Virus record (IMG/VR): IMGVR_UViG_3300022690_001100
Span: 1-20,648 of that record
DNA: 20,648 bases
Source of the DNA: a virus
Strand: one strand, 5' to 3'
The stretch's first letter is position 1; each line of letters begins with the position of its first letter. The position numbers and the translations under genes were made by a program. Of this stretch, positions 1,561 through 19,589 are shown one piece after another. Below the pieces are notes generated by a model. That model ran no database searches. It was not told where the DNA came from and worked only from the letters and a program-made list of their open reading frames with translations.

Positions 1561-1572
1561 ACCAAAAACGAA
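1561..1572 (+). promoter_or_regulatory. ACCAAAAACGAA leader motif
   Basis: Exact copy of the 12-base leader, ending 5 nt before ATG 1578. It supports that ATG over an upstream in-frame start. Confidence 0.7.
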
Positions 1573-1577
1573 ACATT

Positions 1578-1820
1578 ATGAAACCTTTTAGTGTATTATT
1601 AAAAATAAAGTATATAGCTATTAAATGGGGTGATATACAAGCAAGTGACGGAATGCCATTTGAGGATGAGGTTATTGTTCATATCGGTAGAGATTTAAAA
1701 GTTAAAGCTATAAACCTTTTTGCGCATAATGTTATGGCGGATATAATGAAAGATCCATTCATAGGCCAAGCGGATATAATTAGTTTGGAAATTCTATTTA
1801 TTGATCTAATTAAAGAATAA
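1578..1820 (+). CDS. Hypothetical protein (80 aa)
   Basis: The frame is open upstream to about 1506, but the start is placed at ATG 1578 because the promoter (-7 box near 1541) and the ACCAAAAACGAA leader lie directly before it. The product has mixed hydrophobic and acidic stretches and a probable alpha/beta character; I recognise no domain. It is the first gene of the early block, 4 nt before the zinc-ribbon gene at 1825, and shares its regulatory cassette with the gene at 6186. Confidence 0.65.
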   Translation: MKPFSVLLKIKYIAIKWGDIQASDGMPFEDEVIVHIGRDLKVKAINLFAHNVMADIMKDPFIGQADIISLEILFIDLIKE

Positions 1821-1824
1821 CCCC

Positions 1825-2049
1825 ATGCCCAACCAATCCGACCTAATAGGTCAAAACCTAGTCCGACACGCTGAAAAAAGGTTACTTACAACCCCTTTAA
1901 CTTGTCTTAATTGCGAATGGACTGGCAGGCAGTCCGAATTAATAACCAGGTATCCCCCTGATGGAATGGGAGATGTTTACCCTGTTGATTTTTGTCCGCT
2001 TTGTGAATCGGAAAGTATTGTTAATAGTTGTTTAATTGAAAACGAATAA
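1825..2049 (+). CDS. Small zinc-ribbon-like protein (74 aa)
   Basis: Two CxxC pairs are visible, LTCLNCEWTG and DFCPLCES, separated by about 30 residues that contain a Pro/Gly-rich turn. This is the layout of a treble-clef or zinc-ribbon metal site. Small proteins of this type in phages often bind nucleic acid or act as adaptors, but no function can be assigned. It begins 4 nt after the preceding stop, and its stop lies just before ATG 2051, so it is in the same operon. Confidence 0.65.
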   Translation: MPNQSDLIGQNLVRHAEKRLLTTPLTCLNCEWTGRQSELITRYPPDGMGDVYPVDFCPLCESESIVNSCLIENE

Positions 2050-2050
2050 T

Positions 2051-3070
2051 ATGAAAACATTAGAATTAAAACAAGTTGACCTGTCATTGATAACTGGTTA
2101 TGAAGCTGAAATTAGTTTGAACATGAAGGAGTATCTATCATTAAAAATAGATGGCATCGAAGATAAAGAGGGGTTTGAAAAGGTCCATAAAGCATGGCAA
2201 ATGGTCAGGGATTCCAGGATCAATGTTGAAAAGGTCCGTAAGAGCTTGGTTTCTGATGCTGTTCAACTGCAAAGGGATGTCAATGATGAAGCCAAACGGA
2301 TTACCGAACTATTAAAACCGATTGAAATTCACCTGAGATCGCAACAAGAAAGGATTAATGAAGAAAAAGAAGTCATCAAAACGGAAAAATTAAGACTGGA
2401 AATGGAGGCTTTGAATAAGCGTATTGCATTACTTCTTAAAAATGAAATGGAATTTGATGGCACTTTCTATAGGTTAGGAAAATTAGTGACCGATAACCAT
2501 TCATTAAAAGCAATGTCAGAAGATAAATTTTCAGAATTTCTTAATGAAGTATTAATATTAAATGAAGCCGAGATCAAGCGCAAGGAAGAAGAAGAAAGGA
2601 TCAATGCAGCCAAAGAAGCCAAGGAGGAAGAAGTAAGGAGGCTTGAGGCCCAACGTGTTGCCAGGATCGCAAAAGAACAGGAAACAGAACGCCTACGCCT
2701 TGAGGCTATTCAAAAAAAGCAGGATGAAAAAGCAAAGGAATTACAGGAAGCAAAGGATAAGATAGAAAGGGAAAAGGAACTTGAACAAGCCAAAATTGAT
2801 GCTGTAGAAAAAGCAAAAGAAGATGCTCGTATTGATGCTGAGTTTGAAATAGAAAGGCAGAAGGTGCTTGCTAAAAACAAACGGATTGAAGAAGAAAGAC
2901 TCGAAGCCCTGAAACCGGATAAGGAGAAGTTGATTGTATTTGCTGGTTTAATAGAGACTATTCAAGTGCCGGAATTAACATCCAAAGATGGACAACTTAC
3001 AATAAAGTTTATCAAGTTTGATCTTGATAATTTACATAAAAAAATCCTTAATAAAATTGAACATATGTAA
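2051..3070 (+). CDS. Coiled-coil protein of the recombination block (339 aa)
   Basis: ATG 2051 follows AAAACGAATAAT, a partial match to the leader motif; a TTG 15 nt upstream is less likely. Residues ~1-130 are a mostly helical domain with repeated KxxxxxR/K patterns. Residues ~175-285 are an almost continuous E/K/R/A-rich coiled coil. A short beta-rich C-terminal domain (~290-339) follows. Proteins of this shape are often encoded just before RecT/ERF annealing proteins, sometimes annotated as DUF1351-like; I use this only as a contextual parallel. A structural or scaffolding role in recombination or replication is inferred. The next gene begins 1 nt after the stop. Confidence 0.7.
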   Translation: MKTLELKQVDLSLITGYEAEISLNMKEYLSLKIDGIEDKEGFEKVHKAWQMVRDSRINVEKVRKSLVSDAVQLQRDVNDEAKRITELLKPIEIHLRSQQERINEEKEVIKTEKLRLEMEALNKRIALLLKNEMEFDGTFYRLGKLVTDNHSLKAMSEDKFSEFLNEVLILNEAEIKRKEEEERINAAKEAKEEEVRRLEAQRVARIAKEQETERLRLEAIQKKQDEKAKELQEAKDKIEREKELEQAKIDAVEKAKEDARIDAEFEIERQKVLAKNKRIEEERLEALKPDKEKLIVFAGLIETIQVPELTSKDGQLTIKFIKFDLDNLHKKILNKIEHM

Positions 3071-3071
3071 T

Positions 3072-3278
3072 ATGCCATTTATAAATCTTCTAAAACCACT
3101 AATGCTTAAAAACGATATCAGTCCAAAGGAAGTGGCTATTACTCTGGGCAAAAGTATTCCTACAATTGCAAACTGGATGGAGAATAAAACCCAACCTGAC
3201 GTAATTTATATTCCCCCGTTAATGGAGTTGCTTAACATTTATGATATCGGGGAATTTCTAATGGAAGTCAATGAATAA
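3072..3278 (+). CDS. Small HTH DNA-binding protein (68 aa)
   Basis: ATG 3072 directly follows the coiled-coil stop; a longer frame from 3018 overlaps that gene and is not favoured. The sequence reads LMLKNDISPKEVAITLGKSI then PTIANWMENKTQPD, a Cro/CI-type helix-turn-helix in which the second helix starts at Ser-Ile-Pro-Thr. It could be a phage regulator of the early operon or a DNA-binding accessory of the recombination genes. The target is unknown; the paired palindromes at 12336 and 17561 are candidates. Confidence 0.7.
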   Translation: MPFINLLKPLMLKNDISPKEVAITLGKSIPTIANWMENKTQPDVIYIPPLMELLNIYDIGEFLMEVNE

Positions 3279-3284
3279 ATGACA

Positions 3285-3296
3285 ACCAAAAACGAT
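3285..3296 (+). promoter_or_regulatory. ACCAAAAACGAT leader motif without an obvious gene
   Basis: One-mismatch copy of the leader. No ATG follows at the usual distance; a TTG at 3301 would open a 13-codon frame only. It may be a relic of a deleted gene or a short leader peptide. Confidence 0.35.
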
Positions 3297-3310
3297 AAAC
3301 TTGATTGAGA

Positions 3311-3342
3311 ATTCAATCTTGAATGGGAAAGTTGTATCTTAA
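3311..3342 (+). promoter_or_regulatory. Possible promoter with TATCTTAA -7 box
   Basis: TATCTTAA (3335-3342) lies in the 96-nt gap before the ERF gene and belongs to a family of four gap-located GTATCTTA/T motifs. The -33 element is weak, so this is a candidate only. Confidence 0.3.
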
Positions 3343-3358
3343 ATAAATCATATTATTA

Positions 3359-3370
3359 ACCAAAAACGAA
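3359..3370 (+). promoter_or_regulatory. ACCAAAAACGAA leader motif
   Basis: Exact copy ending 4 nt before ATG 3375 of the ERF gene. Confidence 0.7.
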
Positions 3371-3374
3371 ACCA

Positions 3375-4187
3375 ATGGACGAAAATCAAACACAAGGACT
3401 AAACCCTTTAATGGTTTTAAACAAGGCTATAGAGGGTAAGGTTGATTTAGACCAGTTACAAAAGCTGATGGACCTATACGAAAGATGGCAAGGCGGGATA
3501 GCAAAAAAGGAATTCATTCAAGCCTTAAGCGATTTCCAAGCTGATTGTCCTATCATCGAAAAATCTTCTAAGGCCGAATTCAATGGTAAGACTCAGTATA
3601 AGTATGCAACCCTAGGCACCATTATTGATACTATCAAGAAAGTATTGCAGCAAAATGGATTATCCTATAGATGGGAGACTGAGGAAAAGGATAATAAGAT
3701 TTCAATCACCTGCATTCTAACGCATATTGGAGGCTATGAAGCAAAAAACACAATGTCTGCTGTTGCTGATACTTCGGGCTCCAAGAACAGCATTCAATCC
3801 TATGGTTCATCGGTGACCTACCTACAACGCTATACCCTTATAGGTTCCCTTGGTATTGGTTCGGCTGATACTGATGATGAAGGAAGCTCAGTTAAGCCAA
3901 AGGAAGAAAAAAAGCCGGAACTTACACCTAAGCATGACAGGTGGAAAGGAGCTAATAAAGGAATTGTCATTGGTAATATAACAATGGACCAAGTCAAAAA
4001 GAATTATTCTCTTAGTCCTGCTAATGAAGAGTTGTTAAAAGCCAAGTTAATGTTAACACCCAAGGATGAAGATTGGAACAGGATAGGTGTGGATCTTGAA
4101 TTAGCTAAAACAACAATTGAAGAAGTCAAAAAAGTATATTCTATTACCCCCGAAAACGAAAAATTATTATGTCAAATTCCAGAATAG
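3375..4187 (+). CDS. erf: ERF-family single-strand annealing protein
   Basis: The 270-aa product has the ERF signatures KTQYKYATLGTIID (about residues 72-85) and QSYGSSVTYLQRYTL (141-155). These phage proteins coat single-stranded DNA and anneal complementary strands during recombination, repair and genome circularisation. Start ATG 3375 is fixed by the leader motif. After the ERF core (~1-165) comes a charged linker and a C-terminal region in which ITMDQVKKNYSLSPANEELL (202-221) is repeated as TTIEEVKKVYSITPENEKLL (246-265), an internal duplication. The partner exonuclease gene overlaps its 3' end by 19 nt, as expected for a two-gene annealing system. Confidence 0.9.
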   Translation: MDENQTQGLNPLMVLNKAIEGKVDLDQLQKLMDLYERWQGGIAKKEFIQALSDFQADCPIIEKSSKAEFNGKTQYKYATLGTIIDTIKKVLQQNGLSYRWETEEKDNKISITCILTHIGGYEAKNTMSAVADTSGSKNSIQSYGSSVTYLQRYTLIGSLGIGSADTDDEGSSVKPKEEKKPELTPKHDRWKGANKGIVIGNITMDQVKKNYSLSPANEELLKAKLMLTPKDEDWNRIGVDLELAKTTIEEVKKVYSITPENEKLLCQIPE

Positions 4188-4846
4188 AACTACCCCTCTT
4201 CAAAATTCGCTGCTCAAGTATCGGCATAATAATGGGCCTAAAAGGCCTAAGTAAAACCGGAGAAACCTATTTAAAAGAATGGGCCAAATCCCAGATATAC
4301 AAACGCAAAAAACAAATCATATCCAAATACCTGACCAAAGGGATCATCATGGAAGATACCGGTATTGAGATGATAGGCGAACACCTTTGTTTAGGTATGA
4401 TCATGAAAAACGAGCAACAATTTGAGAATGACTTTATAAAGGGGACTCCAGATGTTCTCATCAAGGATATGGTTATTGATAATAAAAACTCCTGGGATGA
4501 ATTTACCTTCCCTTTATTTGATACCTCAGTCCCGAATTCGGATTATTATTGGCAGCTACAAGGCTATATGGCGGTTTGTGTGCGATCAAAAGCTATTTTG
4601 GCCTATACCCTTACGGATATGCCAGAACATCTAATCAATGCTGAAGCATGGCGTTACTGTAACCAATATGGTCATGAGCATACTGAGAAGATATTTAACA
4701 AGTTCAAAGACATGTACACTTACAATGATATTCCCGATGACCTCAAGATCAAATGTTTCGAGATAGATCGCAATGACAATGATATTGACCGGATTAAGGA
4801 ACGGGTTTTGGAGTGTAGGGCTTATTTGGAACAACTTAAATTTTAG
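4169..4846 (+). CDS. PD-(D/E)XK exonuclease, YqaJ/lambda-exo-like (225 aa)
   Basis: The product shows an acidic residue in GIIMEDTGIE (about residues 58-67), GTPDVLI (92-98), IDNK (103-106, the D-x-K part of the PD-(D/E)XK core) and WQLQGYM (128-134), the conserved Gln motif of YqaJ/RecB-like phage exonucleases. These enzymes resect double-stranded DNA to make single strands for the annealing partner. The gene overlaps erf and the two form a SynExo-type pair. The ATG at 4169 is preceded by AAAACGAAAAATTATT, a diverged leader motif. The third core residue is Asp-Asn-Lys rather than Glu-x-Lys, within family variation. Confidence 0.8.
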   Translation: MSNSRIELPLFKIRCSSIGIIMGLKGLSKTGETYLKEWAKSQIYKRKKQIISKYLTKGIIMEDTGIEMIGEHLCLGMIMKNEQQFENDFIKGTPDVLIKDMVIDNKNSWDEFTFPLFDTSVPNSDYYWQLQGYMAVCVRSKAILAYTLTDMPEHLINAEAWRYCNQYGHEHTEKIFNKFKDMYTYNDIPDDLKIKCFEIDRNDNDIDRIKERVLECRAYLEQLKF

Positions 4847-4850
4847 GGTT

Positions 4851-5048
4851 ATGAAAACAGGATATTACATTAAAAGTAACGACCCCATAACAGGAATAGT
4901 CACAATAGCAATAATGGAACTTAATAACTCCCAAATAAGGGCTTTAATACAATGTTTAGAAGACCGTAGCCATGAATTACCAGACAATTGTTTAGCCATA
5001 CATAATTCAATGTGTTCATTTGATAAAGGCAGTTGTAAAAAATGTTAA
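4851..5048 (+). CDS. Hypothetical protein (65 aa)
   Basis: ATG 4851 lies 4 nt after the exonuclease stop; a longer frame from 4773 would overlap the exonuclease and is unlikely. The C-terminal half carries four cysteines (QCLED, DNCLA, SMCSF, SCKKC), but not as a clear CxxC/CxxC pair. No family recognised. It is the last gene of the erf-exonuclease cluster before the DnaA-box-containing gap. Confidence 0.6.
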   Translation: MKTGYYIKSNDPITGIVTIAIMELNNSQIRALIQCLEDRSHELPDNCLAIHNSMCSFDKGSCKKC

Positions 5049-5117
5049 CAACCATGTTGACAACCAAGCCAAAAAAAAGTCAAGTTGATAACTACCCCTT
5101 TATCAACACCTTTTCAA

Positions 5118-5129
5118 CACAAAAACGAA
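5118..5129 (+). promoter_or_regulatory. Diverged leader motif (CACAAAAACGAA)
   Basis: Two-mismatch copy of the leader ending 4 nt before ATG 5134 of a 32-codon frame. Confidence 0.4.
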
Positions 5130-5133
5130 AACC

Positions 5134-5232
5134 ATGTTAATAAAGTTTTTCAATGATACCAAGACTTTAAACCCCATTTTTACCACTTATCAACTTATCC
5201 ACACCCTTAATGATAATGATAAGTATATATAA
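5134..5232 (+). CDS. Possible micro-gene (32 aa) inside the DnaA-box region
   Basis: The frame begins MLIKFFNDTK and ends at TAA 5230-5232. It is supported only by the leader-like motif at the correct distance before ATG 5134. The DnaA box lies within it. It may be chance or a leader peptide. Confidence 0.25.
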   Translation: MLIKFFNDTKTLNPIFTTYQLIHTLNDNDKYI

Positions 5233-5287
5233 CCCTTATTATTAAGAATGTTAATATGTTGATAACCCCGAAAAAAAGACAAAAAAA

Positions 5288-5875
5288 ATGAAGAAAGAAA
5301 AAGAAAAAATTGCCGGCAAAAAAGAAAAGTTTGAAACCATAGCCGAGACAATTGCAAAGCTTAATGATATCCCTGCATCTGATGAATTTTTACAAAGGGT
5401 AGTCGGGTTTATGAGAAACAAGTATTGGAGTAGTGCAAGACCTGAAACCCGGTTACAGTTTTTAGTTTATGCTTGGATCAAGGCAACATATCCTGACCTG
5501 TTAGTTGTTCATTGCCCCAATGAAGGTAAAAGAACAAATTGGGAACAATTTTATATTAAATATTCGGGTGTAGTTAGCGGCTTTCCTGATTTGGCCATCT
5601 ATCAACCTACCAAGATTCCTGTAGGTGTTGTTACTAAAGTAGAAGATATGGTAAAACCATATCCATTTTGGCAAGACAGTGTATTATCTGAATGCAGGAA
5701 TTATTGTGGTTTAGCAATCGAGCTTAAGATTTGGCCCAAACAACCTACTAAAAACCAACTCAATTGCCTTGAAGCACTCAGGGCGGCTGGATGGTTTTGT
5801 ACTATTTGTTGGGATTTCCCCACTACAATTAAGACTGTTTCAGAATATATGGATCACAGGATACAACAAATTTAG
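5288..5875 (+). CDS. VRR-NUC domain nuclease (195 aa)
   Basis: After a Lys/Glu-rich start (residues 1-25) the protein carries the VRR-NUC pattern: ETRLQFLVYAW (53-63), VVHCPNEGKR (73-82), SGFPDLAIY (97-105, the G-x-P-D motif), AIELKIWP (143-150, E-x-K catalytic pair) and Gln157 followed by LRAAGW. VRR-NUC enzymes are PD-(D/E)XK nucleases related to Holliday-junction and flap cutters. In phages they sit in replication and recombination blocks, as here beside erf and its exonuclease. ATG 5288 follows an A-rich tract with no Shine-Dalgarno. The next gene begins directly at the stop. Confidence 0.85.
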   Translation: MKKEKEKIAGKKEKFETIAETIAKLNDIPASDEFLQRVVGFMRNKYWSSARPETRLQFLVYAWIKATYPDLLVVHCPNEGKRTNWEQFYIKYSGVVSGFPDLAIYQPTKIPVGVVTKVEDMVKPYPFWQDSVLSECRNYCGLAIELKIWPKQPTKNQLNCLEALRAAGWFCTICWDFPTTIKTVSEYMDHRIQQI

Positions 5876-6115
5876 ATGCAAGTCTATTGCCAGGCATTCT
5901 CAAATCTATGCACAAATGAAAAATGTGCTTATTCAAAAAGATGTGATTGGGCAAATGTTACTCCTGTTGCTGCATTGCAAACGATCAGGGATGCTAATTT
6001 AATAGTCATGCATCAACAATTCAGGAAGGGATTAAGATCAAGGGTTTTATTTATCTCGGATTGCCAAGGTGGTATAGATTGGGCAAACTCTTACCCTAAC
6101 TACCGTCCTAAATAA
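5876..6115 (+). CDS. Hypothetical Cys-containing protein (79 aa)
   Basis: ATG immediately follows the TAG of the VRR-NUC gene, so the two are translationally coupled. Cysteines occur at CQAF, LCTNEKCAYSKRC and DCQGG; the cluster CxxxxCxxxxxC could bind metal but does not match a family I know. No membrane segment. Coupling suggests a role with the nuclease, but this is inference. Confidence 0.6.
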   Translation: MQVYCQAFSNLCTNEKCAYSKRCDWANVTPVAALQTIRDANLIVMHQQFRKGLRSRVLFISDCQGGIDWANSYPNYRPK

Positions 6116-6144
6116 TTTGCAAATAAATTTGGTAGTGTGGATAA
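6116..6144 (+). repeat. 29-bp direct repeat, copy 2, carrying a DnaA box
   Basis: Identical to 1505-1533. It contains TTTG (6128-6131) as the -33 element and TGTGGATAA (6136-6144), a perfect DnaA box on the minus strand. Confidence 0.85.
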
Positions 6145-6159
6145 AGGGTTGTAGATTTG
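6128..6159 (+). promoter_or_regulatory. Bacteroidota-type promoter, copy B
   Basis: TTTG (6128-6131), a 20-nt spacer and TAGATTTG (6152-6159) match TTTG-N20-TAnnTTTG perfectly. The DnaA box lies in the spacer, so DnaA binding could block transcription. The leader motif begins 10 nt after the -7 box. Confidence 0.65.
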
Positions 6160-6169
6160 ATAATTGTTA

Positions 6170-6181
6170 ACCAAAAACGAA
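6170..6181 (+). promoter_or_regulatory. ACCAAAAACGAA leader motif
   Basis: Exact copy ending 4 nt before ATG 6186. Confidence 0.7.
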
Positions 6182-6185
6182 TGAT

Positions 6186-6443
6186 ATGAGTTACACACAA
6201 GAATTAATTGACGGAGTAAAAGAAGTTTATTCTGACAGCAAAGAAATGAATGAATTAGCTGAATCGGGAAATGCTTTTTTAGGTAGGTATCTTGATGATA
6301 GTCAAAGTAATAGCATTAATATTAAAACGATATTAGAAGCTAAAACACTTGAGGAGCTTCAAGATAAAGCTAGGGCGTATCAAAAAGGAGTTGATTTATA
6401 TCGAATGTGGGGTAAACAAGATCCCAGAACTAAAGTTGGGTAA
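6186..6443 (+). CDS. Hypothetical protein (85 aa)
   Basis: First gene after promoter B and the leader motif, with ATG 6186 clearly set by both. The product is mostly helical and acidic (MSYTQELIDGVKEVYSDSKE) with a basic C-terminus (WGKQDPRTKVG). No domain recognised. The next gene starts 17 nt later behind its own leader-like motif. Confidence 0.65.
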   Translation: MSYTQELIDGVKEVYSDSKEMNELAESGNAFLGRYLDDSQSNSINIKTILEAKTLEELQDKARAYQKGVDLYRMWGKQDPRTKVG

Positions 6444-6444
6444 A

Positions 6445-6456
6445 ACCAAAAACAAG
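6445..6456 (+). promoter_or_regulatory. Diverged leader motif (ACCAAAAACAAG)
   Basis: Two-mismatch copy ending 4 nt before ATG 6461 and lying inside an operon, which argues that the motif acts in translation rather than as a promoter. Confidence 0.45.
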
Positions 6457-6460
6457 CATT

Positions 6461-6658
6461 ATGAAAACAAGGGAAGATTTAGAAAAGATGATTGAAGAGG
6501 CCGCTAAATTAGCAGAGGAAATTGAAGAAATTCCTATTGGGGCTGTATTGAGTGGTTTATTGGTATGTATGGCAGTAAACTCGGAAGATATATTGGCTTT
6601 GAGTACTATTGACATTTGCGAACGATTACATAAAGAAATAACATCAAAACTTAATTAA
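6461..6658 (+). CDS. Hypothetical protein (65 aa)
   Basis: Short helical protein with a strongly acidic/basic first third (MKTREDLEKMIEEAAKLAEE), a small hydrophobic middle (GAVLSGLLVCMAV) and a charged end. It may be a short coiled coil or a peripheral membrane peptide. No family recognised. It is probably co-transcribed with 6186-6443 and the MazG-like gene. Confidence 0.55.
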   Translation: MKTREDLEKMIEEAAKLAEEIEEIPIGAVLSGLLVCMAVNSEDILALSTIDICERLHKEITSKLN

Positions 6659-6748
6659 CACAATCCGGATCTTAAAACACTGGCTGACCCCAAAACACCC
6701 CCCGAAGTGTCCTATAGGTTAGCTGGTGTTTGTTTAAAATTAATCAAA

Positions 6749-8843: not shown

Positions 8844-9254
8844 ATGCCTGATAAGTCCGTATACATCGGGGAGACCCTCAAAGGATGGATAGCATGGTGC
8901 GTTAATACTGATCAGTCAAGCTACGCAGCCGCTTCGGATCCCACCAATTTTGTAAGAAACAGCGGTGTTCTCGATATCGTAACCTACAGATCTGATGAAT
9001 ACAACTGGGAAGACCTCCCCAAATTCGGTATATTATGCATTAAAAAGTTTACACTAGATGCCCAGTCCAATACCAAGCCCCCCGAAGTCCACAATGGGTA
9101 TAACCAGTACTGCCCTTACAATGAAGTCTCTGACCTTGCAGATATAACCAACCATATCAAATGGGGCATAATGTTAGATAATTCCCAGGAGTTTGATGAT
9201 GTTTATTTTACTGCAAAAAACGATACTGCCGTAGTACTTACAATGCTAGATTAA
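8844..9254 (+). CDS. Hypothetical structural-type protein (136 aa)
   Basis: It lies 12 nt after the HTADPG-family gene and overlaps the repeat-rich fiber gene by one base (TAATG). Aromatic- and Asp/Asn-rich beta-type sequence with CVNTDQSSYAAASDPTNFV near the start, three cysteines and no signal peptide. An ATG at 8833 is out of frame, so 8844 is the start. Its position between two tail-type genes suggests a tail or fiber component; no family is recognised. Confidence 0.6.
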   Translation: MPDKSVYIGETLKGWIAWCVNTDQSSYAAASDPTNFVRNSGVLDIVTYRSDEYNWEDLPKFGILCIKKFTLDAQSNTKPPEVHNGYNQYCPYNEVSDLADITNHIKWGIMLDNSQEFDDVYFTAKNDTAVVLTMLD

Positions 9255-10918
9255 TGGCAACAACCTATATTCCCAAAGGTGCTAATGCTCATGTTTCTCC
9301 CTTTGCTGATGGTAACAGGGAAATGTCTGTTGGTACAGAAACTGCTGGAAGTTTTCTTGTTTCTCCTGTTAATGGTGGTGGATTTCAATTTCATGGATAT
9401 ATAACAGTACCAAACGTACCTAATTCAAATGCATGGGAGACATTAAATAACCAAACTTTAGAATTAGAAGTTACTTCAGCTGACAGCGATATACATGCCA
9501 GGGTAAGAATAGTGAGACTGGATTCTGCAGGAACCATAATACAAAATGGCGGTTTTACATCTACGCAATCTTGTGCAGCGTCCCGGGTATTCTTACCGGA
9601 CATTTTTTCATGGGAACCCGAGGAGGCTTGCGGTAATTTACTGGCTGTTGAAATTGAATTTGAGAACAGGGCTGCACATGGTGTCCATAGTGTTTCAATA
9701 GGATTAGGAACAACAGCAAACGAGTATATAAGTGATGTAACAGAAGGAACCGGATGCACCGGAACTTCCCCGATAACAGGAGCGATAAACGGGGCATCAA
9801 CTTTAACCGGAACCATTTCGGCTACTGTTGCCATTTCAGGAGCGATCAACGGACTATCTACTTTCACAGCTACGGGTGCATCAAAAGGATTTATATCGGG
9901 AGCTATTAACGGAGCTTCTACTATATCAGCCGCAATACAAGCCACAGGAGAATTAAGCGGGGCTATTAATGGCACATCAACCTTAACCGGCACAATATTA
10001 GCCCAAGGAGAATTATCAGGAGCCATTAACGGGCTATCAACTCTTACCGGTACTTTATTAGCCAATGGGGAACTATCAGGATCGATAAACGGCCTTTCTA
10101 CCTTTACCGGTTTCTTACAGGCTGTTATTCCTATCAGCGGGGCTATAAATGGTCTATCCACATTTACCGGAACCTTGCAGGCTATTGGAGACGTAGCAGG
10201 GGCAATAAACGGGTTATCTACTTTCACGGCCACACCATCAGGAATTGGCCAATTGTCGGGCACCATTAATGGATCATCTGTATTAACGGCTGTTATTTCA
10301 GCCAAGGGTGATTTGTCGGGCGCGATCACCGGACTTTCTACACTCACTGCAACAGGTGATTTAAAAGGATTTGTTTCAGGTGCCATCAATGGAACTTCAA
10401 CTTTAACCGGTACCATACTAGCTAAAGGTGATTTGTCGGGCATTATCACCGGACTTTCAACATTCACAGGTGCAGTTATTGATAAAGGTTCATTAGTTGG
10501 AGCTATTAATGGTTTATCCACCTTAACAGGTACACTCCAGGCTATTGGTGTTTTATCGGGCTCCATTAACGGGGTTAGTAGTTTCACGGCTATTATCATA
10601 GGAATAGGGCCCTTATCAGGAGCCATTAACGGATCAACTATTATTACAGCCAGCGGGGTTTCAAAAGGTTTTATCAATGGGGCTATTAACGGGAATTCAA
10701 CATTTACGGCAATCTTGTTTGCTACAGCTGGGATCGAGGGAGCAATTAACGGGGTAGGTACTTTCACCGGTACCCTTACTGTAGGGCTTCCTTTCTTGAA
10801 TCAAGTACTTTTGAGGACTTCTTTAACTGATACGATTGTACTTGAATCGGGGTTAACTGATACTATAATACTCCGCACAGAGATTGAAAAAGTAGTCCTT
10901 GAAACTTCCATAGCTTAG
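9254..10918 (+). CDS. Repeat-rich phage fiber protein (554 aa)
   Basis: An N-terminal beta-rich domain (~1-174) with TETAGSFLVSPVNGGGFQFH and ARVRIVRLDSAGTI is followed by seventeen 20-residue repeats with consensus SGAINGLSTLTGTLxAxGxL (residues ~175-514). A short tail contains SLTDTIVLESGLTDTIILRT. Gly/Asn turns and alternating Ser/Thr/hydrophobic residues suggest a beta-stranded fibrous shaft, as in phage tail fibers. The last gene of this tail block; 128 nt of structured non-coding DNA follows. The large open frame on the opposite strand is a product of the repeat. Confidence 0.75.
   Translation: MATTYIPKGANAHVSPFADGNREMSVGTETAGSFLVSPVNGGGFQFHGYITVPNVPNSNAWETLNNQTLELEVTSADSDIHARVRIVRLDSAGTIIQNGGFTSTQSCAASRVFLPDIFSWEPEEACGNLLAVEIEFENRAAHGVHSVSIGLGTTANEYISDVTEGTGCTGTSPITGAINGASTLTGTISATVAISGAINGLSTFTATGASKGFISGAINGASTISAAIQATGELSGAINGTSTLTGTILAQGELSGAINGLSTLTGTLLANGELSGSINGLSTFTGFLQAVIPISGAINGLSTFTGTLQAIGDVAGAINGLSTFTATPSGIGQLSGTINGSSVLTAVISAKGDLSGAITGLSTLTATGDLKGFVSGAINGTSTLTGTILAKGDLSGIITGLSTFTGAVIDKGSLVGAINGLSTLTGTLQAIGVLSGSINGVSSFTAIIIGIGPLSGAINGSTIITASGVSKGFINGAINGNSTFTAILFATAGIEGAINGVGTFTGTLTVGLPFLNQVLLRTSLTDTIVLESGLTDTIILRTEIEKVVLETSIA
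9776..10795 (+). repeat. Seventeen tandem 60-bp coding repeats
   Basis: From 9776 (codon 175 of the fiber gene) the pattern [A/S]GAINGxSTxTG recurs every 60 bp for seventeen units without a length change. Units differ by synonymous and non-synonymous substitutions. Some longer-range similarities, such as ATGASKGFI, ATGDLKGFV and ASGVSKGFI in units 2, 10 and 15, hint at block duplications. Confidence 0.95.
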
Positions 10919-13454: not shown

Positions 13455-13676
13455 ATGGAATGGATAGATATAAATGACAGCTTGCCCGAAAAAGGTATTA
13501 AGGTTTTAGGGTTTAGTAATGATGCAGGAGAAACATGGATGTCGATAATTATACACGACCCTTATGCTGCTTATGATGGAACAGAGGTTATATTTCAGAA
13601 TGATGAGCCAAGAGTAAGTAATATAAGTGTAACACATTGGATGCCGTTACCTGAACCACCAAAAAAGGAAGGATGA
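13455..13676 (+). CDS. DUF551 domain protein (73 aa)
   Basis: MEWIDINDSLPEKGIKVLGF at the start and VTHWMPLPEPPKKEG at the end are the two hallmark segments of DUF551, a small phage/prophage family of unknown function. It occupies nearly the whole protein. ATGA overlap with the next gene. Confidence 0.85.
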   Translation: MEWIDINDSLPEKGIKVLGFSNDAGETWMSIIIHDPYAAYDGTEVIFQNDEPRVSNISVTHWMPLPEPPKKEG

Positions 13677-14205: not shown

Positions 14206-14208
14206 GAT

Positions 14209-14463
14209 ATGGCCGAACTATTAGAAGATCCAGAATTTTCAAAGGATAATAAAATCAACCTTTATTTAGCAAGGGATGAAAACGGTACTTTAACTCTTTA
14301 CTTCGATAAACCAATGAAGTTTAAAGATGGACATTGGAGAGTTTTTGTTCAGACAAGCCATATTGAATTGGATAAAACTTGGTTCCCAAATGTAAAATGG
14401 GAAGACAGGAAGCCAACCAAAGTTGAATTAACTTTAACCGAAGATATAATAAAACTAATATGA
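14209..14463 (+). CDS. Hypothetical protein (84 aa)
   Basis: Aromatic beta-strand pattern (INLYLARDENGTLTLYFDKP and HWRVFVQTSHIELDKTWFP) with an acidic N-terminus. No family recognised. ATGA overlap with the following gene. Confidence 0.6.
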   Translation: MAELLEDPEFSKDNKINLYLARDENGTLTLYFDKPMKFKDGHWRVFVQTSHIELDKTWFPNVKWEDRKPTKVELTLTEDIIKLI

Positions 14464-14885
14464 TCGACCCAAAAGAATTAATGATAGGCAACTGGATTCT
14501 TGACCATGCAGGGGTGCCAAGGCAGGTTGTATTGGTTTGTGAAGGGCTTATAAAGCTAGACCTTCAAAATGGTGGTGGAGTACAGAGATACGAGGATGAT
14601 CCAATATTAAGCCCACATATTAAATTTTTGAAACCGATTGAACTGACTGAAAAATGGTTGATTGATTTACAATTTGGTTTAATATCTAAGCCAGATGAAA
14701 TACCGACATACAGGATTAGAGATTTTATAATTGATTATGTCCCTGAAATGAATTGTTATTGGTTAGAAACTAATAATGAATTACAAACTTCTCCTATTAG
14801 ATTTGTACATGAAATTCAAAACCTCCACCTTACCTTAACCCAAACCCATTTAACCAGACAAATTGCCAAAAACGAAACCGGATGA
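14460..14885 (+). CDS. Conserved-looking Bacteroidota phage protein (141 aa)
   Basis: The layout LMIGNWILDHAGVPRQV near the N-terminus, LKPIELTEKWLIDLQFGLI in the middle and IRFVHEIQNLHLTLTQTHLT at the end recurs in Bacteroidota phages and prophages as an unnamed family, as far as I recall. Function unknown. Its 3' end overlaps the zinc-ribbon gene and contains that gene's leader motif. Confidence 0.65.
   Translation: MIDPKELMIGNWILDHAGVPRQVVLVCEGLIKLDLQNGGGVQRYEDDPILSPHIKFLKPIELTEKWLIDLQFGLISKPDEIPTYRIRDFIIDYVPEMNCYWLETNNELQTSPIRFVHEIQNLHLTLTQTHLTRQIAKNETG
14865..14876 (+). promoter_or_regulatory. Leader motif (GCCAAAAACGAA) inside the upstream gene
   Basis: One-mismatch copy ending 5 nt before ATG 14882. 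It lies within codons of the preceding gene, showing that the signal is kept even where it must also encode protein. Confidence 0.6.
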
Positions 14886-15109
14886 TAGTTAAAGTAACAA
14901 TGTTCGCTTGCAATTGTGATAATTGTAGCAGACAATTTGTAGAACAGGAAACAGATTTTGTGGCTTTCACGGATGAAGATGGTATTAAGGAAAGTGTTGG
15001 GGAGGATGAAGATTGGTATAGTGAGGATGGTAAACATTATTGTCCTAGCTGTTTAGAAGGATTAGATGCTACCTTTATCAATTACGAGGTTATGGCATTG
15101 CATAAATGA
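14882..15109 (+). CDS. Small zinc-ribbon-like protein (75 aa)
   Basis: CNCDNCSRQF near residue 10 and HYCPSCLEGL near residue 50 give two CxxC pairs around an acidic, aromatic middle, a likely zinc-binding fold. ATG 14882 is placed by the leader motif. The stop overlaps the terminase start (ATGA), so it is coupled to terminase translation. Function unknown. Confidence 0.65.
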   Translation: MIVKVTMFACNCDNCSRQFVEQETDFVAFTDEDGIKESVGEDEDWYSEDGKHYCPSCLEGLDATFINYEVMALHK

Positions 15110-17565
15110 TCCCCGCCACCCACGTAGAATTCCCTCCCTTCAACAAACTGGTTAACCCTTCCTTTGCACATCTTTTCACGAACAAAGACCGTTACATATT
15201 CGAATGGGGTGGTCGTAACGGTTCCCGGTCTACATCCACAGGCAGATGTTTACTTTACCGCTGCTTAGATCATGAGTATTTCAGGTGTATTATGATCAGG
15301 AAGGTTCATAATTCCATCAAGGACAGCATATGGCAAACCCTGAAGGATGAAGCAGAAGCCCTTGGCATTGAAGACCTGTTTACTTTCAAAGTGTCCCCAC
15401 TTGAAATAGTATGCAACAACGGCAATAAATTCATTGCCAGGGGACTTGATCAACCGGCCAAGCTCAAATCCATCAAAGACCCTACATGCGCTTGGTACGA
15501 GGAAGGGAACCAAATCACAGTGGAAGACTTTATCACGGTGACTACTTCCATGAGATCATCCAAAGCCGAATTCCTTCAGGAGATCTTCACATTCAACCCA
15601 GAAACAGAAGGCAATTACGAAGACTTTTGGATGTGGAAAATGTTCTTTGAGGGGCATGCTGAAAAGAGTTTCAGATCTACTATTGATATTGAATACATAG
15701 TTGATGGTGAAAAAAAGATGGTACAATCTAATTACACGGTTCACCATTCAACCTACAGGGATAATCAATACCTGACTATCCAACAGATAGCCGACCTTGA
15801 GCAATGGAAGGTAATAAACCCGTATTACTATACAGTCTATACCTTGGGGGAATGGGGTAATAAGGCAATCGAGGGAAAGTTCTGGTCGGGTTTCAACAGG
15901 CTAAAACATGTTAAAGATGATATCTTTCTCGATCTTGAAAAGCCAATACATATGTCTTTTGATGAAAATAACAGGCCATATCCGGCAATGACTATATGGC
16001 AATATGATGAACTTGATGCGGTTTGGCAAGGTAATAAATTACTAAGACCCGAAACGGTCTTAGTAAGGCAAGTCCATGAAATTTGTTTAACTGAACCCAA
16101 TAACAAACTAGTAAAGGTAGCTAAAGAGTTAATCAGGTGGTTAACTATAAATGGGTGGCATAATTTGATTTATGAATATGGTGACGCTTCATCTGACAGG
16201 GAAGATACCAAACTTGAAAAAGGAGTCAATTATTTTACAATACTGAGGGATGTATTTGTTGAAGCGGGTTATAGTGTCAGAATTCGCAAGCCTAACAAAA
16301 ATCCACCTGTTGCTTTTTCGGCTGAATTTATTAATGCTTGTTTTGAGGCTAATTACCTTGGATTTGATATATCTATTTCTTCTGAATGTAAGGAGTCGAT
16401 CAATGATTATTTATTGGTTCAGGCCAAGACAGATGGCACAATGAAGAAGCCAAAAGATAAAAATGGTATAGAGATTTTAGGACATTGTTTTATAGGCGAA
16501 ACCACCATAAAAACCCTTAATGGTGATAAGCGAATCAAAGATATTAAAGAGGGTGAATTTGTTTTAACAAGGTTCGGATTTAGGAAAGTATTACGATCAT
16601 GGCTAACTAGAAAAGACGCAATAGTAAAAACATATAACATTTGTGGTAATGAAATTACATGTACCCCAGATCATAAGATTTATACCAAAAACAGGGGATT
16701 TATTGCAGCCGATAAGTTGATAGTTAGAGATATTTTTTGTATATTGAAGTCATGGAACCAAAAGAAATCATTTACAACGGTCATAAGTTCACCCGAGCAT
16801 TACGGGGTAAAAAAAGTGACACAATATATTATGTCGGAAGACCTTACATGCATCAAAGAAAAATCTATCTGCATAGGTACAAATGGACTATTCATAATGG
16901 CCCTATCCCAAAAGGGTATCACATCCACCATATTGATAAAAATCCTTTCAATAATGACATTTCTAATTATGAGTGTTTATCGGTTAAAGAACATAGGCAA
17001 AGGCATAAGGATGATAATTGGTATTATACAGATGCAGGAAAAGAGCATTTTGAAAAGGTTCAAGAACTGGCAAAAGTATGGCATAGATCAGAAGAGGGAA
17101 GGGAATGGCATCGACAACATGGAATTAATGTATTCTCCAACAGAGAATATAAAGAATACACCTGCGAAATATGTCAAAAAACCTTTAAAAGCAAAGGACC
17201 AAACGGGGCTAAATTTTGTTCCAACAATTGCAAAAGTGCTTACAGGCGGAAGATGGGATTTGATAACGAGCAAAGAAACTGTGAATATTGTAGCAAACAA
17301 TTCACAACTAACAAATATTCAAAAGCCAAATGTTGTTCAAAGTCTTGTGGTTCCAAATTCAGGAAGTATAGCTGATGTTTATGATCTTACAATTGAAGGA
17401 GACCACGAATTCTTTGCTAATAATATCCTAGTCCACAATTGCTCAGACAGTTTTCGCTATTTCTTTATTGAGGCTTTCAAAAAACAATTTGAGAAGTACA
17501 AGAAACGAGGAGCAGGAAAAGACAGGCCACAGGTTATCGGGCAACCGCAAAAGAAAACTTATTAA
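15106..17565 (+). CDS. terL: Phage terminase large subunit (PBSX-like) interrupted by an intein
   Basis: The 819-aa precursor would give a 501-aa mature protein after splicing. ATPase motifs: a Walker-A-like GGRNGSRS at 35-42 (Arg in place of the usual Lys), Walker B as CAWYEEGNQ at 128-136 and the coupling motif TFNPE. Nuclease acidic residues: Asp286 (MSFDENNRP), Asp360 (EYGDASSD) and Asp781 (CSDSFRYFF). The enzyme cuts concatemeric DNA and drives packaging into the prohead. The intein lies between His460 and Cys779, inside the third nuclease motif. The gene overlaps the zinc-ribbon gene by ATGA. Confidence 0.9.
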   Translation: MIPATHVEFPPFNKLVNPSFAHLFTNKDRYIFEWGGRNGSRSTSTGRCLLYRCLDHEYFRCIMIRKVHNSIKDSIWQTLKDEAEALGIEDLFTFKVSPLEIVCNNGNKFIARGLDQPAKLKSIKDPTCAWYEEGNQITVEDFITVTTSMRSSKAEFLQEIFTFNPETEGNYEDFWMWKMFFEGHAEKSFRSTIDIEYIVDGEKKMVQSNYTVHHSTYRDNQYLTIQQIADLEQWKVINPYYYTVYTLGEWGNKAIEGKFWSGFNRLKHVKDDIFLDLEKPIHMSFDENNRPYPAMTIWQYDELDAVWQGNKLLRPETVLVRQVHEICLTEPNNKLVKVAKELIRWLTINGWHNLIYEYGDASSDREDTKLEKGVNYFTILRDVFVEAGYSVRIRKPNKNPPVAFSAEFINACFEANYLGFDISISSECKESINDYLLVQAKTDGTMKKPKDKNGIEILGHCFIGETTIKTLNGDKRIKDIKEGEFVLTRFGFRKVLRSWLTRKDAIVKTYNICGNEITCTPDHKIYTKNRGFIAADKLIVRDIFCILKSWNQKKSFTTVISSPEHYGVKKVTQYIMSEDLTCIKEKSICIGTNGLFIMALSQKGITSTILIKILSIMTFLIMSVYRLKNIGKGIRMIIGIIQMQEKSILKRFKNWQKYGIDQKREGNGIDNMELMYSPTENIKNTPAKYVKKPLKAKDQTGLNFVPTIAKVLTGGRWDLITSKETVNIVANNSQLTNIQKPNVVQSLVVPNSGSIADVYDLTIEGDHEFFANNILVHNCSDSFRYFFIEAFKKQFEKYKKRGAGKDRPQVIGQPQKKTY
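16486..17439 (+). other. Intein (318 aa) in the terminase nuclease motif
   Basis: Block A begins at Cys461 (CFIGETTIKTLNGDKRIKDI). Block B is GNEITCTPDHKIYT, with TxxH at 520-523. Blocks F and G are DVYDLTIEGDHEFF and NNILVHN, followed by +1 Cys779. These are the residues needed for Cys1/His-Asn/Cys+1 splicing. Between B and F lie about 210 residues that look like no known domain in this frame, because that DNA encodes an HNH endonuclease in another frame. Homologous terminases continue directly from GH to xSDSxRY. Confidence 0.93.
16752..17375 (+). CDS. HNH homing endonuclease nested out of frame in the intein
   Basis: This 207-aa protein is read in a different + frame from the terminase. 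From ATG 16752 it carries YNGHKFTRALRGKK, a canonical HNH core GYHIHHIDKNPFNNDISNYE (55-74) with ECLSVKEHRQRH after it, and two zinc-finger-like modules at the C-terminus, YTCEICQKTF...KFCSNNCKSAYRRK and RNCEYCSKQF...KCCSKSCGSKF. The stop TGA (17373-17375) falls exactly where intein block F begins. No Shine-Dalgarno precedes ATG 16752; a TTG at 16737 is an alternative start. It probably drives homing of the intein. Expression could come from internal initiation or frameshifting. Confidence 0.88.
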   Translation: MEPKEIIYNGHKFTRALRGKKSDTIYYVGRPYMHQRKIYLHRYKWTIHNGPIPKGYHIHHIDKNPFNNDISNYECLSVKEHRQRHKDDNWYYTDAGKEHFEKVQELAKVWHRSEEGREWHRQHGINVFSNREYKEYTCEICQKTFKSKGPNGAKFCSNNCKSAYRRKMGFDNEQRNCEYCSKQFTTNKYSKAKCCSKSCGSKFRKYS

Positions 17566-17576
17566 CTTAATGTTAA
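17561..17576. promoter_or_regulatory. Palindrome ATTAACTTAATGTTAA, copy 2 (operator candidate)
   Basis: Identical to 12336-12351. It overlaps the terminase stop codon and lies 20 nt before TAACTTTG (17596-17603), which fits the -7 promoter box, so a repressor bound here could block that promoter. Confidence 0.45.
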
Positions 17577-17761
17577 TTTTGTTAGGTATTTTTATTAACT
17601 TTGTGTTAAATGGGGTGGGGTTACCCTTAAATATTATCCAACGTCATTAGTTCCCATTGTGATAGCGAAAGCGGGGGCTCTCTTGGCAGCGTGGTTTACC
17701 ACTAAGGTTAATATTGAAATATCACAACCCCATTTTTAATTGTTAACCAAAAACGAATTAA
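17566..17761 (+). other. 196-nt non-coding gap with possible structured RNA
   Basis: TAACTTTG (17596-17603) fits a -7 box but lacks a well-spaced TTTG. AAATGGGGT (17608-17616) can pair with ACCCCATTT (17727-17735), enclosing about 110 nt that includes GCGAAAGC (a GNRA-type loop, 17665-17672) and GTGGTTTACCAC (17691-17702). T5 follows the closing arm. The GC-rich patch stands out from the AT-rich surroundings. It could be a small RNA, a packaging site near terL or a leader. Confidence 0.35.
17746..17757 (+). promoter_or_regulatory. ACCAAAAACGAA leader motif
   Basis: Exact copy ending 4 nt before ATG 17762. Confidence 0.7.
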
Positions 17762-18037
17762 ATGAATTTTGAAGTAACACCATCAGACCGTTTAGATAAA
17801 TTCGATGAAAAGTTGGATTCAATTGGTAGCCGCTTAGATCGGATAGAACAGAACAATTACCGCAATCAAAATCTGACTAAAAAAGAAGCTGCAAAATTGT
17901 ATAAAGTTTGTGTTAAAACCTTGGAGATTTGGATGAGAAAAGGCTTACTTCCATACATCCAAGTTCAATCAAAAATTTTCCTGAAAGTTTCCGATATGGA
18001 AGATTTATTTGATAAAAATTACAAAAAAGGAAAATGA
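17762..18037 (+). CDS. Excisionase-like HTH protein with coiled-coil start (91 aa)
   Basis: Residues ~9-32 (DRLDKFDEKLDSIGSRLDRI) form a heptad-like coiled coil. Residues ~38-85 (LTKKEAAKLYKVCVKTLEIW, then MRKGLLPYIQVQSKIFLKVS) match the helix-turn-helix-wing of HTH_17/excisionase-type DNA-binding proteins. These are common in Bacteroidota mobile elements and phages as regulators or directionality factors. No integrase is visible in this window, so a regulator is equally likely. The start is set by the leader motif. Confidence 0.75.
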   Translation: MNFEVTPSDRLDKFDEKLDSIGSRLDRIEQNNYRNQNLTKKEAAKLYKVCVKTLEIWMRKGLLPYIQVQSKIFLKVSDMEDLFDKNYKKGK

Positions 18038-18090
18038 TAACCGCCCTTAATTGAACGCCAAGAACCAAGCGATTATTTAAAACGGATCAA

Positions 18091-18327
18091 ATGCCAAGAC
18101 TAGACCAAGACAGACAAAATTCCCTTGAGCCCAAAAGGATGGAACGTGCTATTGAGGCTATTGAGGGGTTGGGATATTATATAATCTTCAAAAATGACAG
18201 TGTATTATCATTTTTTTTTAAAGGAGATCTTATTAGATTTTTCCCTTATTCGGGTTGGGCATCCGGCAAATCAATTAAAGATGGAAGGGGGCTTGATAAA
18301 TTGTTGAAGCAAATTAAAAAACATTAG
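18091..18327 (+). CDS. Conserved small phage protein (78 aa)
   Basis: The pattern NSLEPKRMERAIEAIEGLGY, then LIRFFPYSGWASGKSIKDGR and GLDKLLKQI is a small unnamed family I associate with Bacteroidota phages. Function unknown. Most of the gene (18181-18327) is copied in inverted orientation at 20501-20648. The copy has ten bases in the homopolymer that here is nine T (18211-18219), which would break the frame; the version here is intact. Confidence 0.7.
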   Translation: MPRLDQDRQNSLEPKRMERAIEAIEGLGYYIIFKNDSVLSFFFKGDLIRFFPYSGWASGKSIKDGRGLDKLLKQIKKH

Positions 18328-18346
18328 CCATGCTTAAATGCCACCT
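18181..18346. repeat. Internal partner of right-end inverted repeat
   Basis: Reverse-complement match to 20482-20648, identical except for one base in the poly-T/poly-A run. It spans the end of the 78-aa gene and the start of the next gene. Confidence 0.9.
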
Positions 18347-18482
18347 CTGCAACCACACCCTAACCCAATGCCACGGTCTTCCATGGCATATGCTAACATG
18401 CCCTAACCCTGAATGCTTCCATCATGTAATGGTACTGGATAAGATCGAGGTTCCTTTGGATAGTTTGATTGTTGCAGCTTAA
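18330..18482 (+). CDS. Small Cys/His zinc-ribbon-like protein (50 aa)
   Basis: ATG 18330 begins 2 nt after the preceding stop. MLKCHLCNHTLTQCHGLPWH and LTCPNPECFHHVM give a CxxC, a CxxxxC and several His residues, a probable zinc site. The C-terminus is hydrophobic and acidic (VPLDSLIVAA). No family recognised. Followed 19 nt later by a leader-motif gene. Confidence 0.6.
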   Translation: MLKCHLCNHTLTQCHGLPWHMLTCPNPECFHHVMVLDKIEVPLDSLIVAA

Positions 18483-18486
18483 TTAA

Positions 18487-18498
18487 CCCAAAAACGAA
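18487..18498 (+). promoter_or_regulatory. Leader motif (CCCAAAAACGAA)
   Basis: One-mismatch copy ending 3 nt before ATG 18502. Confidence 0.65.
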
Positions 18499-18501
18499 AT
18501 C

Positions 18502-18993
18502 ATGAAAACAAAAATTAAAATCAAAACCTTTTTAGGAAAATTATTATTTGAATATGAATCAGATGATAATTCAATAAAAAAAACATTAGAGAAAGCCGTC
18601 CTCCGTGGTGCCGTCCTCCGTGGTGCCGTCCTCCGTGGTGCCGTCCTCCGTGGTGCCGACCTCCGTGGTGCCGTCCTCCAACCGATAAAAGATGATTATT
18701 TTTCTGTTCTTCTCAAAGCAATTCCAGAAATACCTAATCTTAAAAAAGCTATTGAATCAGGAAAAATTGATGGCTCTACTTATGATGGTGAATGTGCATG
18801 TTTATGTGGCACATTAGAAAAATCGGACAATAAAAAGGTTGTTTCAATAATTCATGATAACAGGGATTCAAACAGGCCGATTGAAAGGTTTTTTATGGGT
18901 ATTAAAAAGGGGGACACTCCCGAAACTAGCCAATTCTCAAAACTGGCTTTAGAATGGATTGATGAATTTGAAGGGTATTTGAAAGTGAAATGA
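18502..18993 (+). CDS. Pentapeptide-repeat phage protein (163 aa)
   Basis: Residues ~32-60 are six pentapeptide units (AVLRG/ADLRG). The C-terminal domain (~62-163) carries KIDGSTYDGECACLCGTLEK, NRPIERFFMGI and KGDTPETSQFSKLALEWIDE, a combination I recall from other phage pentapeptide proteins of unknown function. The short beta-helical repeat is much smaller than in DNA-mimic pentapeptide proteins such as Qnr or MfpA, so gyrase protection is unlikely. The start is set by the leader motif. ATGA overlap with the ASCH-like gene. Confidence 0.75.
   Translation: MKTKIKIKTFLGKLLFEYESDDNSIKKTLEKAVLRGAVLRGAVLRGAVLRGADLRGAVLQPIKDDYFSVLLKAIPEIPNLKKAIESGKIDGSTYDGECACLCGTLEKSDNKKVVSIIHDNRDSNRPIERFFMGIKKGDTPETSQFSKLALEWIDEFEGYLKVK
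18595..18679 (+). repeat. 15-bp tandem repeat array in the pentapeptide gene
   Basis: GCCGTCCTCCGTGGT occurs four times in perfect tandem (18595-18654), then once with T to A (18655-18669, Val to Asp codon), then as a 10-bp partial. It is far more GC-rich than its surroundings and multiple of three, so copy number can change without breaking the frame. Confidence 0.95.
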
Positions 18994-19361
18994 TGATATT
19001 AGGATTCAAACCACAATTCAAACAAAAGATTCTTGATGGTACTAAGATCCATACCATAAGGGAAGATCGTAATAACCGATGGCAGACAGGTAAGAAGATA
19101 CATTTTGCAACCGGAGTAAGGACTAAAAACTATCATCAGTTTAAAGAGGGTGAATGTAAGTCTATTCAGGCAATTTGGATTAATCCAAAGCAGGAAGGCA
19201 TTCAGATTAACGATAGGGCTTTAACAAGGATAGAGGTGCATTGGTTGGCTAAATATGATGGATTTGATTCTATAGAGGATTTATATTCTTTTTTCTTAAA
19301 AGAAAGTAAAGAGCCATTTGATGCCAAAATTATTCATTGGACAGACTTTGTTTATTTATAG
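18990..19361 (+). CDS. ASCH-like domain protein (123 aa)
   Basis: LGFKPQFKQKILDGTKIHTI followed by REDRNNRWQTGKKIHFATG and the C-terminal IHWTDFVYL follow the ASCH-fold pattern common in phages: a K-T-x-T-I-R-type substrate region, then a beta barrel. ASCH domains are related to PUA and are thought to bind RNA or modified nucleotides. The start MM overlaps the pentapeptide stop; either Met may be used. Specific function unknown. Confidence 0.75.
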   Translation: MMILGFKPQFKQKILDGTKIHTIREDRNNRWQTGKKIHFATGVRTKNYHQFKEGECKSIQAIWINPKQEGIQINDRALTRIEVHWLAKYDGFDSIEDLYSFFLKESKEPFDAKIIHWTDFVYL

Positions 19362-19364
19362 AAT

Positions 19365-19589
19365 ATGGACCTATCCTTCATTAAACCCTTACGGGAACAA
19401 AAAAACCTAACCCAAAAACAGTTAGCCATAATGGTCGGGGTTTCTGTTACTTCCATCTGTCTTTATGAAACAGGGAAAAGAAGCCCAAGGACAAACCATC
19501 TTGAAAAACTGATCAAGATATTTGACTTGGAAATTGAGCTTAAGCATAATAGAATTATTTTAAAACCAAAAACGATAAACCATGAGTAA
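19365..19589 (+). CDS. Cro/CI-type (XRE) HTH regulator (74 aa)
   Basis: REQKNLTQKQLAIMVGVSVT then SICLYETGKRSPRTNHLEKL is a classical XRE helix-turn-helix (residues ~10-50), followed by a short dimerisation-like tail. Such small proteins act as phage repressors or Cro-like regulators. It begins 3 nt after the ASCH-like gene and overlaps the next gene by 8 nt. The palindromes at 12336 and 17561 are possible operators but the link is untested. Confidence 0.85.
   Translation: MDLSFIKPLREQKNLTQKQLAIMVGVSVTSICLYETGKRSPRTNHLEKLIKIFDLEIELKHNRIILKPKTINHE
19565..19576 (+). promoter_or_regulatory. Leader motif (ACCAAAAACGAT) within the XRE gene
   Basis: One-mismatch copy ending 5 nt before ATG 19582, encoded within the C-terminal codons of the XRE gene. 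Confidence 0.6.

Follow-up and report, generated by a model that had tools for sequence, protein, structure and literature searches.

The virus record IMGVR_UViG_3300022690_001100 of IMG/VR, a stretch of 20,648 bases (the window) in which the longer genes lie almost all on the + strand, carries repeated copies of a 12-letter leader, ACCAAAAACGAA, shortly before ATG start codons. We consider it likely that this motif is an element of translation initiation, specific to the phage, for ribosomes that work independently of Shine-Dalgarno pairing, a reading that appears well supported by the position of the motif together with the known biology of Bacteroidota. About ten genes share the leader, and we tentatively suggest that they do so because one phage antisense hairpin could shut down their translation together, which would make them a regulon addressed by RNA in a host that lacks Shine-Dalgarno sequences.

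Eight copies of the leader with at most one mismatch are present on the + strand, four of them exact. The exact copies are located at 1561-1572, 5 nucleotides (nt) before the ATG of gene 1578-1820, and at 3359-3370, 6170-6181 and 17746-17757, each 4 nt before the ATG of the ERF gene 3375-4187, gene 6186-6443 and the helix-turn-helix (HTH) gene 17762-18037, respectively. The copies with one mismatch are located at 14865-14876 (5 nt before gene 14882-15109), 18487-18498 (3 nt before the pentapeptide-repeat gene 18502-18993) and 19565-19576 (5 nt before gene 19582-19788), and a leader-like sequence, also with one mismatch, is found at 3285-3296. Copies with two mismatches precede, by 4 nt each, a short open reading frame at 5134 (5118-5129) and gene 6461-6658 (6445-6456). 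These ten sites are all present as described in the initial annotation, and nine of them precede an ATG as it had stated; the gap, given there as 3-6 nt, is 3-5 nt in the sequence. We also confirmed that some copies lie inside operons and that two of them, at 14865 and 19565, fall within upstream coding sequence, i.e. in the ends of gene 14460-14885 and of the HTH gene 19365-19589, which read them in different frames from each other. Finally, weaker leaders precede gene 2051-3070 by 4 nt (TTGAAAACGAA, 2036-2046, + strand) and the exonuclease-like gene 4169-4846 by 8 nt (4149-4160, + strand, two mismatches).

If the motif had no connection with initiation, it should be equally frequent away from start codons. 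Rather, an ATG follows 3-5 nt after seven of the eight + strand sites with at most one mismatch, compared with a frequency of 0.072 for a random + strand position (p = 7e-8). Permuted 12-mers of the same composition (n = 300) had a mean of 0.38 and a maximum of 5 such sites, compared with 8 for the real motif. With up to two mismatches, 21 matches were found on both strands, compared with 4.5 in shuffles; on the + strand, an ATG was present 3-5 nt downstream of 11 of 19 such matches, the looser copies being less clean. The initial annotation had claimed that the C and the CG of the motif are more than simple A-richness, and two tests bear this out. When each upstream position was permuted among genes, so that the composition per position was kept (the column shuffle), none of 300 shuffles reached the count of the best 8-mer, CCAAAAAC, which is present upstream of 8 of 42 genes (maximum in shuffles, 4). 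Moreover, when the run of five A (A5) was kept and the flanking letters were permuted, each of 127 variants had at most three sites, compared with eight for the real leader. We conclude that the CC and CG flanks exceed base composition.

The terminase large subunit, encoded at 15106-17565 (Pfam Terminase_3, 8e-41), is 62-65% identical to those of three viral contigs (L135-L137). Because all six genome loci that carry a terminase relative bear Bacteroidota names, we take the host to be, probably, a Bacteroidota bacterium. In Flavobacterium johnsoniae, translation is stimulated by A at -12, -13, -6 and -3 and dispenses with Shine-Dalgarno pairing (PMC6847099; PMC9976891), and reporter mutants of the EF-Tu gene in which the A-run from -14 to -10 is changed are translated less (PMC6847099). 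In the window, the A5 run of the leader occupies positions -14 to -8 from the start codon, and among the motif genes A is found at -12 in 9/9, at -13 in 8/9 and at -6 in 7/9. A also peaks at -11 (0.71) and -12 (0.65) in the other starts (n = 31). The start region is predicted to be somewhat more open in motif genes than in other genes (0.62 vs 0.52; Mann-Whitney p = 0.038). We considered and rejected a disguised Shine-Dalgarno site: the longest complement to 16S ribosomal RNA (rRNA), for the one 16S rRNA used, was 7 nt and was matched by 27 of 200 shuffles, and the duplex reached -6.4 compared with a shuffled mean of -7.3; because the pairing is no better than in shuffles, the leader is not a Shine-Dalgarno site in disguise.

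The position of the A-run, the lack of 16S rRNA pairing, the more open starts and the differing frames in the upstream genes make translation the most likely level of action. The proposal in the initial annotation of an element acting on translation stands to this extent, since the ATG gap is fixed, the orientation is single, copies lie within operons and upstream genes and the A-run matches that of F. johnsoniae. In this reading, the A5 run at -14 to -8 would promote initiation as adenines do there in Bacteroidota, the leader may keep the start region open, and its presence would raise translation. Binding of such adenines by the ribosomal protein bS1 has been proposed and is unproven. The leader resembles the non-Shine-Dalgarno regions of F. 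johnsoniae in the A-run at -14 to -10, the A at -6 in most motif genes, the open start and the lack of rRNA pairing; however, what is described there is a preference in composition (PMC6847099), whereas in the window many genes are preceded by the same exact 12-mer, whose CC and CG are fixed.

Three observations weigh against an initiation element of this kind. Only five of nine motif genes have A at -3, which is also a known determinant, and no ATG is found at leader distance from the copy at 3285. Moreover, the nearest terminase relatives lack the exact leader and have no repeated leader of any kind; because they manage without one, the host does not require the leader.

An element in this position could also be a transcription signal, i.e. 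belong to a phage promoter or mark where transcripts with short leaders begin. Matches to the Bacteroidota promoter consensus do occur on the + strand upstream of two leaders: TTTG-N20-TATATTGG at 1517-1548 (9/10) upstream of the leader at 1561, and TTTG-N20-TAGATTTG at 6128-6159 (10/10) upstream of the leader at 6170. However, the distance of the leader is fixed to the ATG and not to the promoters with their -7 box, no promoter match was found near several of the copies, the copies at 14865 and 19565 lie within upstream genes, and the remaining 10/10 match (20044) is not accompanied by the motif. The loose scan was itself unspecific, with 41 matches on the + strand and 71 on the - strand. We regard a transcription signal as very unlikely, in agreement with the earlier statement that the motif is not simply a promoter.

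The two promoter-like sequences overlap a duplicated block of 42 nt (1505-1546 and 6116-6157, 86% identical) preceding two leader genes, and this duplication bears on another explanation, namely that leader units were copied, by recombination or along with their genes, too recently to have diverged, in which case the exact letters would have no role beyond A-richness. The regions 6161-6192 and 17737-17768, which share 91% over 32 nt, and the confinement of the leader to this phage lineage also fit recent copying. In most copies, however, the flanks are not shared and only the motif is common; the downstream genes examined encode different proteins, and the 3-5 nt gap and the surrounding letters vary. 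Recent copying would account for the repeat but not for the hairpin described below, and we regard it as unlikely.

The single orientation, the location next to the ATG, the functional variety of the genes and the sequence-specific flanks would also fit an operator, at which a phage protein binds the motif in RNA and acts as a repressor or activator of many genes, as T4 RegA does near the AUG. RegA controls about 30 phage mRNAs through an A-rich sequence at or beside the AUG; its sites are described there as lacking clear sequence conservation, in which the leader of the window differs, and its regulator is a protein (PMC3014915). Pfam scans of 23 gene products and PHROGs scans of 20 revealed no RNA-binding regulator, although the record may be a fragment. 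The idea in the initial annotation that one protein controls many phage genes is thus left without a candidate among the products scanned, and the candidate regulator that the window offers is instead an antisense RNA; we consider a protein operator improbable.

An initiation element that reflects ribosome preference alone leaves the CC and CG unexplained. The only near-copy of the leader on the - strand (1418-1429, one mismatch), which on the + strand is the antisense of the leader, is located in the loop of a hairpin at 1398-1438 (+ strand), downstream of gene 1074-1361 and ahead of the promoter-like sequence that precedes gene 1578. This hairpin has a perfect 9-bp stem (TTCCTTCCC / GGGAAGGAA) and a 23-nt loop (1407-1429). 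The window has two perfect inverted repeats of this kind (stem of at least 9 bp, loop of 3-40 nt, at least three G or C), the other being in the terminase gene. The loop contains TTCGTTTTTGG (1418-1428), the exact 11-nt antisense of the leader core CCAAAAACGAA and the only such core in the window, together with a CAT at 1410-1412, which is placed to pair with the AUG of a leader having a 5-nt gap. By chance, an exact antisense core would be expected 0.003-0.01 times in a window and 2e-6 to 4e-6 times in a loop; neither figure is corrected for hindsight.

We suggest, as a possibility that is added to the role in initiation, that the loop of a + strand hairpin RNA pairs with CCAAAAACGAA and the AUG and thereby blocks many genes together; similarly, the CC and CG might be kept because they are the address of this hairpin, an idea that we hold with the same reserve. 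Such an antisense RNA would account jointly for the hairpin, its CAT and the conservation of the CC and CG, and it is favoured by the rarity of the perfect hairpin, by the sole exact antisense core in its loop and by the CAT at leader distance. The region 1362-1480 has a folding z of -3.2, and the predicted duplexes of the loop reach -21.4 kcal/mol with gene 14882, the strongest, followed by -17.9 with gene 6186, -15.8 with gene 17762 and -15.4 with gene 3375. Duplexes at -10 kcal/mol or below were predicted for eight of nine motif leaders and for 12 of 44 starts, the strongest being those with motif leaders. However, shuffled loops reached this level with a mean of 3.3 and up to 15 genes, compared with 12 of 44 for the real loop, and the energies therefore prove little alone. 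Pairing of the loop through G-U with the diverged leaders at 2036 and 4149, judged by visual inspection, is too slight to serve as evidence.

Several points speak against the antisense reading. It concerns a single locus that was spotted after the fact, and the hairpin alone has a folding z of -2.0. An Rfam search returned no credible match for the hairpin, its two matches, at E up to 1 and far below the cut-off, being located elsewhere. Gene 1074-1361 had no retrieved relative that could be used for comparison, and a second hairpin at 1446-1470 (+ strand; 10-bp stem followed by TTTT) was not called in a terminator scan. We also surveyed 181 sequences, some of them overlapping, for loops antisense to a repeated leader 9-mer. 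With overlapping registers merged, the 13 entries fell at four places: two in FPSV-S4 (A/T words), one within a gene of the phage contig G013 (three leaders) and one in the window. The loop in the window matches the most leaders, i.e. seven, compared with three or four at the other places, and nothing clearly alike was found among the other leader-bearing phages surveyed.

The copy on the - strand could alternatively be the start site of a real gene of 20 codons on that strand. It has the form of a leader with an ATG at 5 nt; however, the frame closes after 20 codons inside gene 1074-1361, and it would have to be a coincidence that the copy sits in the loop of so rare a hairpin. We judge such a gene to be improbable, somewhat more so than the protein operator. 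For the candidate antisense RNA, the nearest likeness is c4 of the phages P1 and P7, a phage RNA that targets a ribosome-binding region through complementary stretches that are probably in loops; c4 is described as acting on one operon, whereas the candidate in the window would address about ten leaders (PMC8198154; PMC12197685).

Next to the nearest terminase relatives, we searched for the leader in other phages, as had been proposed in the initial annotation, and found that some have fixed leaders of their own. Viral contigs were searched for the exact leader followed by ATG, and among the matches listed and the other loci compared, 142 in all, 129 had one near-exact copy before an ATG and 8 had none; at least two near-exact copies before ATG were present in five loci, i.e. 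four pieces of the window and L133. The latter was rejected as a leader-bearing relative, its copies being palindromic repeats and the leaders of its contig resembling Shine-Dalgarno sites. A longer form with TTAACC was found in ten stretches, none with a repeated leader of the kind in the window, and the promoter repeat of the window gave no match in a search for its spread among phages.

Among 20 contigs tested for a repeated leader, four beat all 300 column shuffles (the window, G013, G015 and L164, the last partly through duplicate genes). A set of 129 loci included 65 with enough genes, in 13 of which the repeated upstream word was matched in at most 2 of 200 shuffles; six of these 13 had a Shine-Dalgarno-like word, and among contigs with few Shine-Dalgarno sequences the count was 4 of 22. 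In another set of 37 testable loci, 4 of the 15 with few such sequences passed this threshold. The loci of these sets were fetched for a leader-like match and are not a random sample. Named phages were negative or weak in three cases (lotta8-1, matched in 177/300 shuffles; crAss001, 56/300, first 40 kb only; B40-8, 20/300) and positive with plain A-rich words in two (FPSV-S4, 1/300; MT835681, 2/300).

G013 (L187-L188, 38.3 kb), with a terminase 37% identical to that of the window, has 13 copies of AAAACAGAGA on both strands, nine of them shortly before an ATG, and G015 has ACCAAAAA before 6 of 54 genes. In L075, an ATG follows five of eight AAAACGA sites, with AAAACGAA 2-4 nt away, and a RecT-like gene is among those preceded by this leader; its relatives are alike. 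The group with the AAAACGAA leader (GC 0.46-0.50) comprises L075, L312, L243, L278, L314, L311, L330, L307, L337 and L300, which share proteins mutually; at 1e-3, none of the 42 window proteins compared is shared with this group. Finally, GAAAGCGA is present upstream of 9 of 38 genes in L130 and TAGTGTAA upstream of 7 of 28 genes in L112. The leaders of G013 and the L075 group resemble that of the window in that a short exact sequence precedes many genes in contigs with few Shine-Dalgarno sequences; they differ from it in their letters and in lacking a clear antisense hairpin, and the L075 group shares no proteins with the window. In total, fixed leaders recur among phages with different letters, and most contigs tested had none.

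A search in host genes, also proposed earlier, gave no support in the genomes sampled for a leader shared with the host, which may itself lie outside them. The exact leader followed by ATG had 27 matches in 295 Bacteroidia genomes, compared with 23 for the reversed control, i.e. chance level, and was absent from the six genomes with a terminase relative. The shorter form CAAAAACGAA-N3..5-ATG was scanned in 296 Bacteroidota genomes and judged by per-genome outliers; G482 (28 matches) was the single outlier, all other genomes having at most six, and the reversed control had the outlier G326 (13 matches). We rejected G482 as a leader-bearing genome: 27 of its 28 matches were one identical 17-mer, and the seven copies read were a dispersed repeat.

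Other features of the window were noted. Within the terminase gene, an HNH endonuclease (HNH_3, 5.7e-14) is encoded at 16728-17372 in a frame other than that of the terminase, which is open throughout its intein region (819 amino acids) and overlaps the HNH frame. The same intein/HNH layout is present in L136 (2063-2737), where the HNH frame is 62% and the intein frame about 42% identical; a hidden HNH endonuclease has reportedly been described in another phage insertion (PMC11855218). The pentapeptide repeat of gene 18502 is encoded by 15-nt repeats (18595-18694), and repeats spaced 60 nt are found along gene 9254-10918 (9770-10773). At both ends, the contig repeats nearby sequence in inverted orientation (1-143 and 880-1022; 18181-18349 and 20479-20648; 98-99% complementary), and these ends resemble chimeric ends from amplification or assembly. 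Two distant relatives of the ERF gene were retrieved. No family of Pfam or PHROGs was matched by the genes 177-788, 785-1093 and 1074-1361, and nothing in these results marks the operon preceding the hairpin as late.

In full-text literature searches, with subscription papers mostly outside their scope, we recognised no report of such a leader or of an anti-leader RNA, and antisense control of a whole phage gene set was not met in the literature searched. By settling on a single exact leader, the phage provides a natural experiment that may show which letters count when Bacteroidota ribosomes choose start sites without Shine-Dalgarno pairing. Should the hairpin act on this leader as an antisense RNA, one short RNA could control a whole set of phage genes; moreover, if the hairpin RNA is the 3' end of a transcript that runs through gene 1074-1361, expression of that operon would be coupled to repression of the leader genes.

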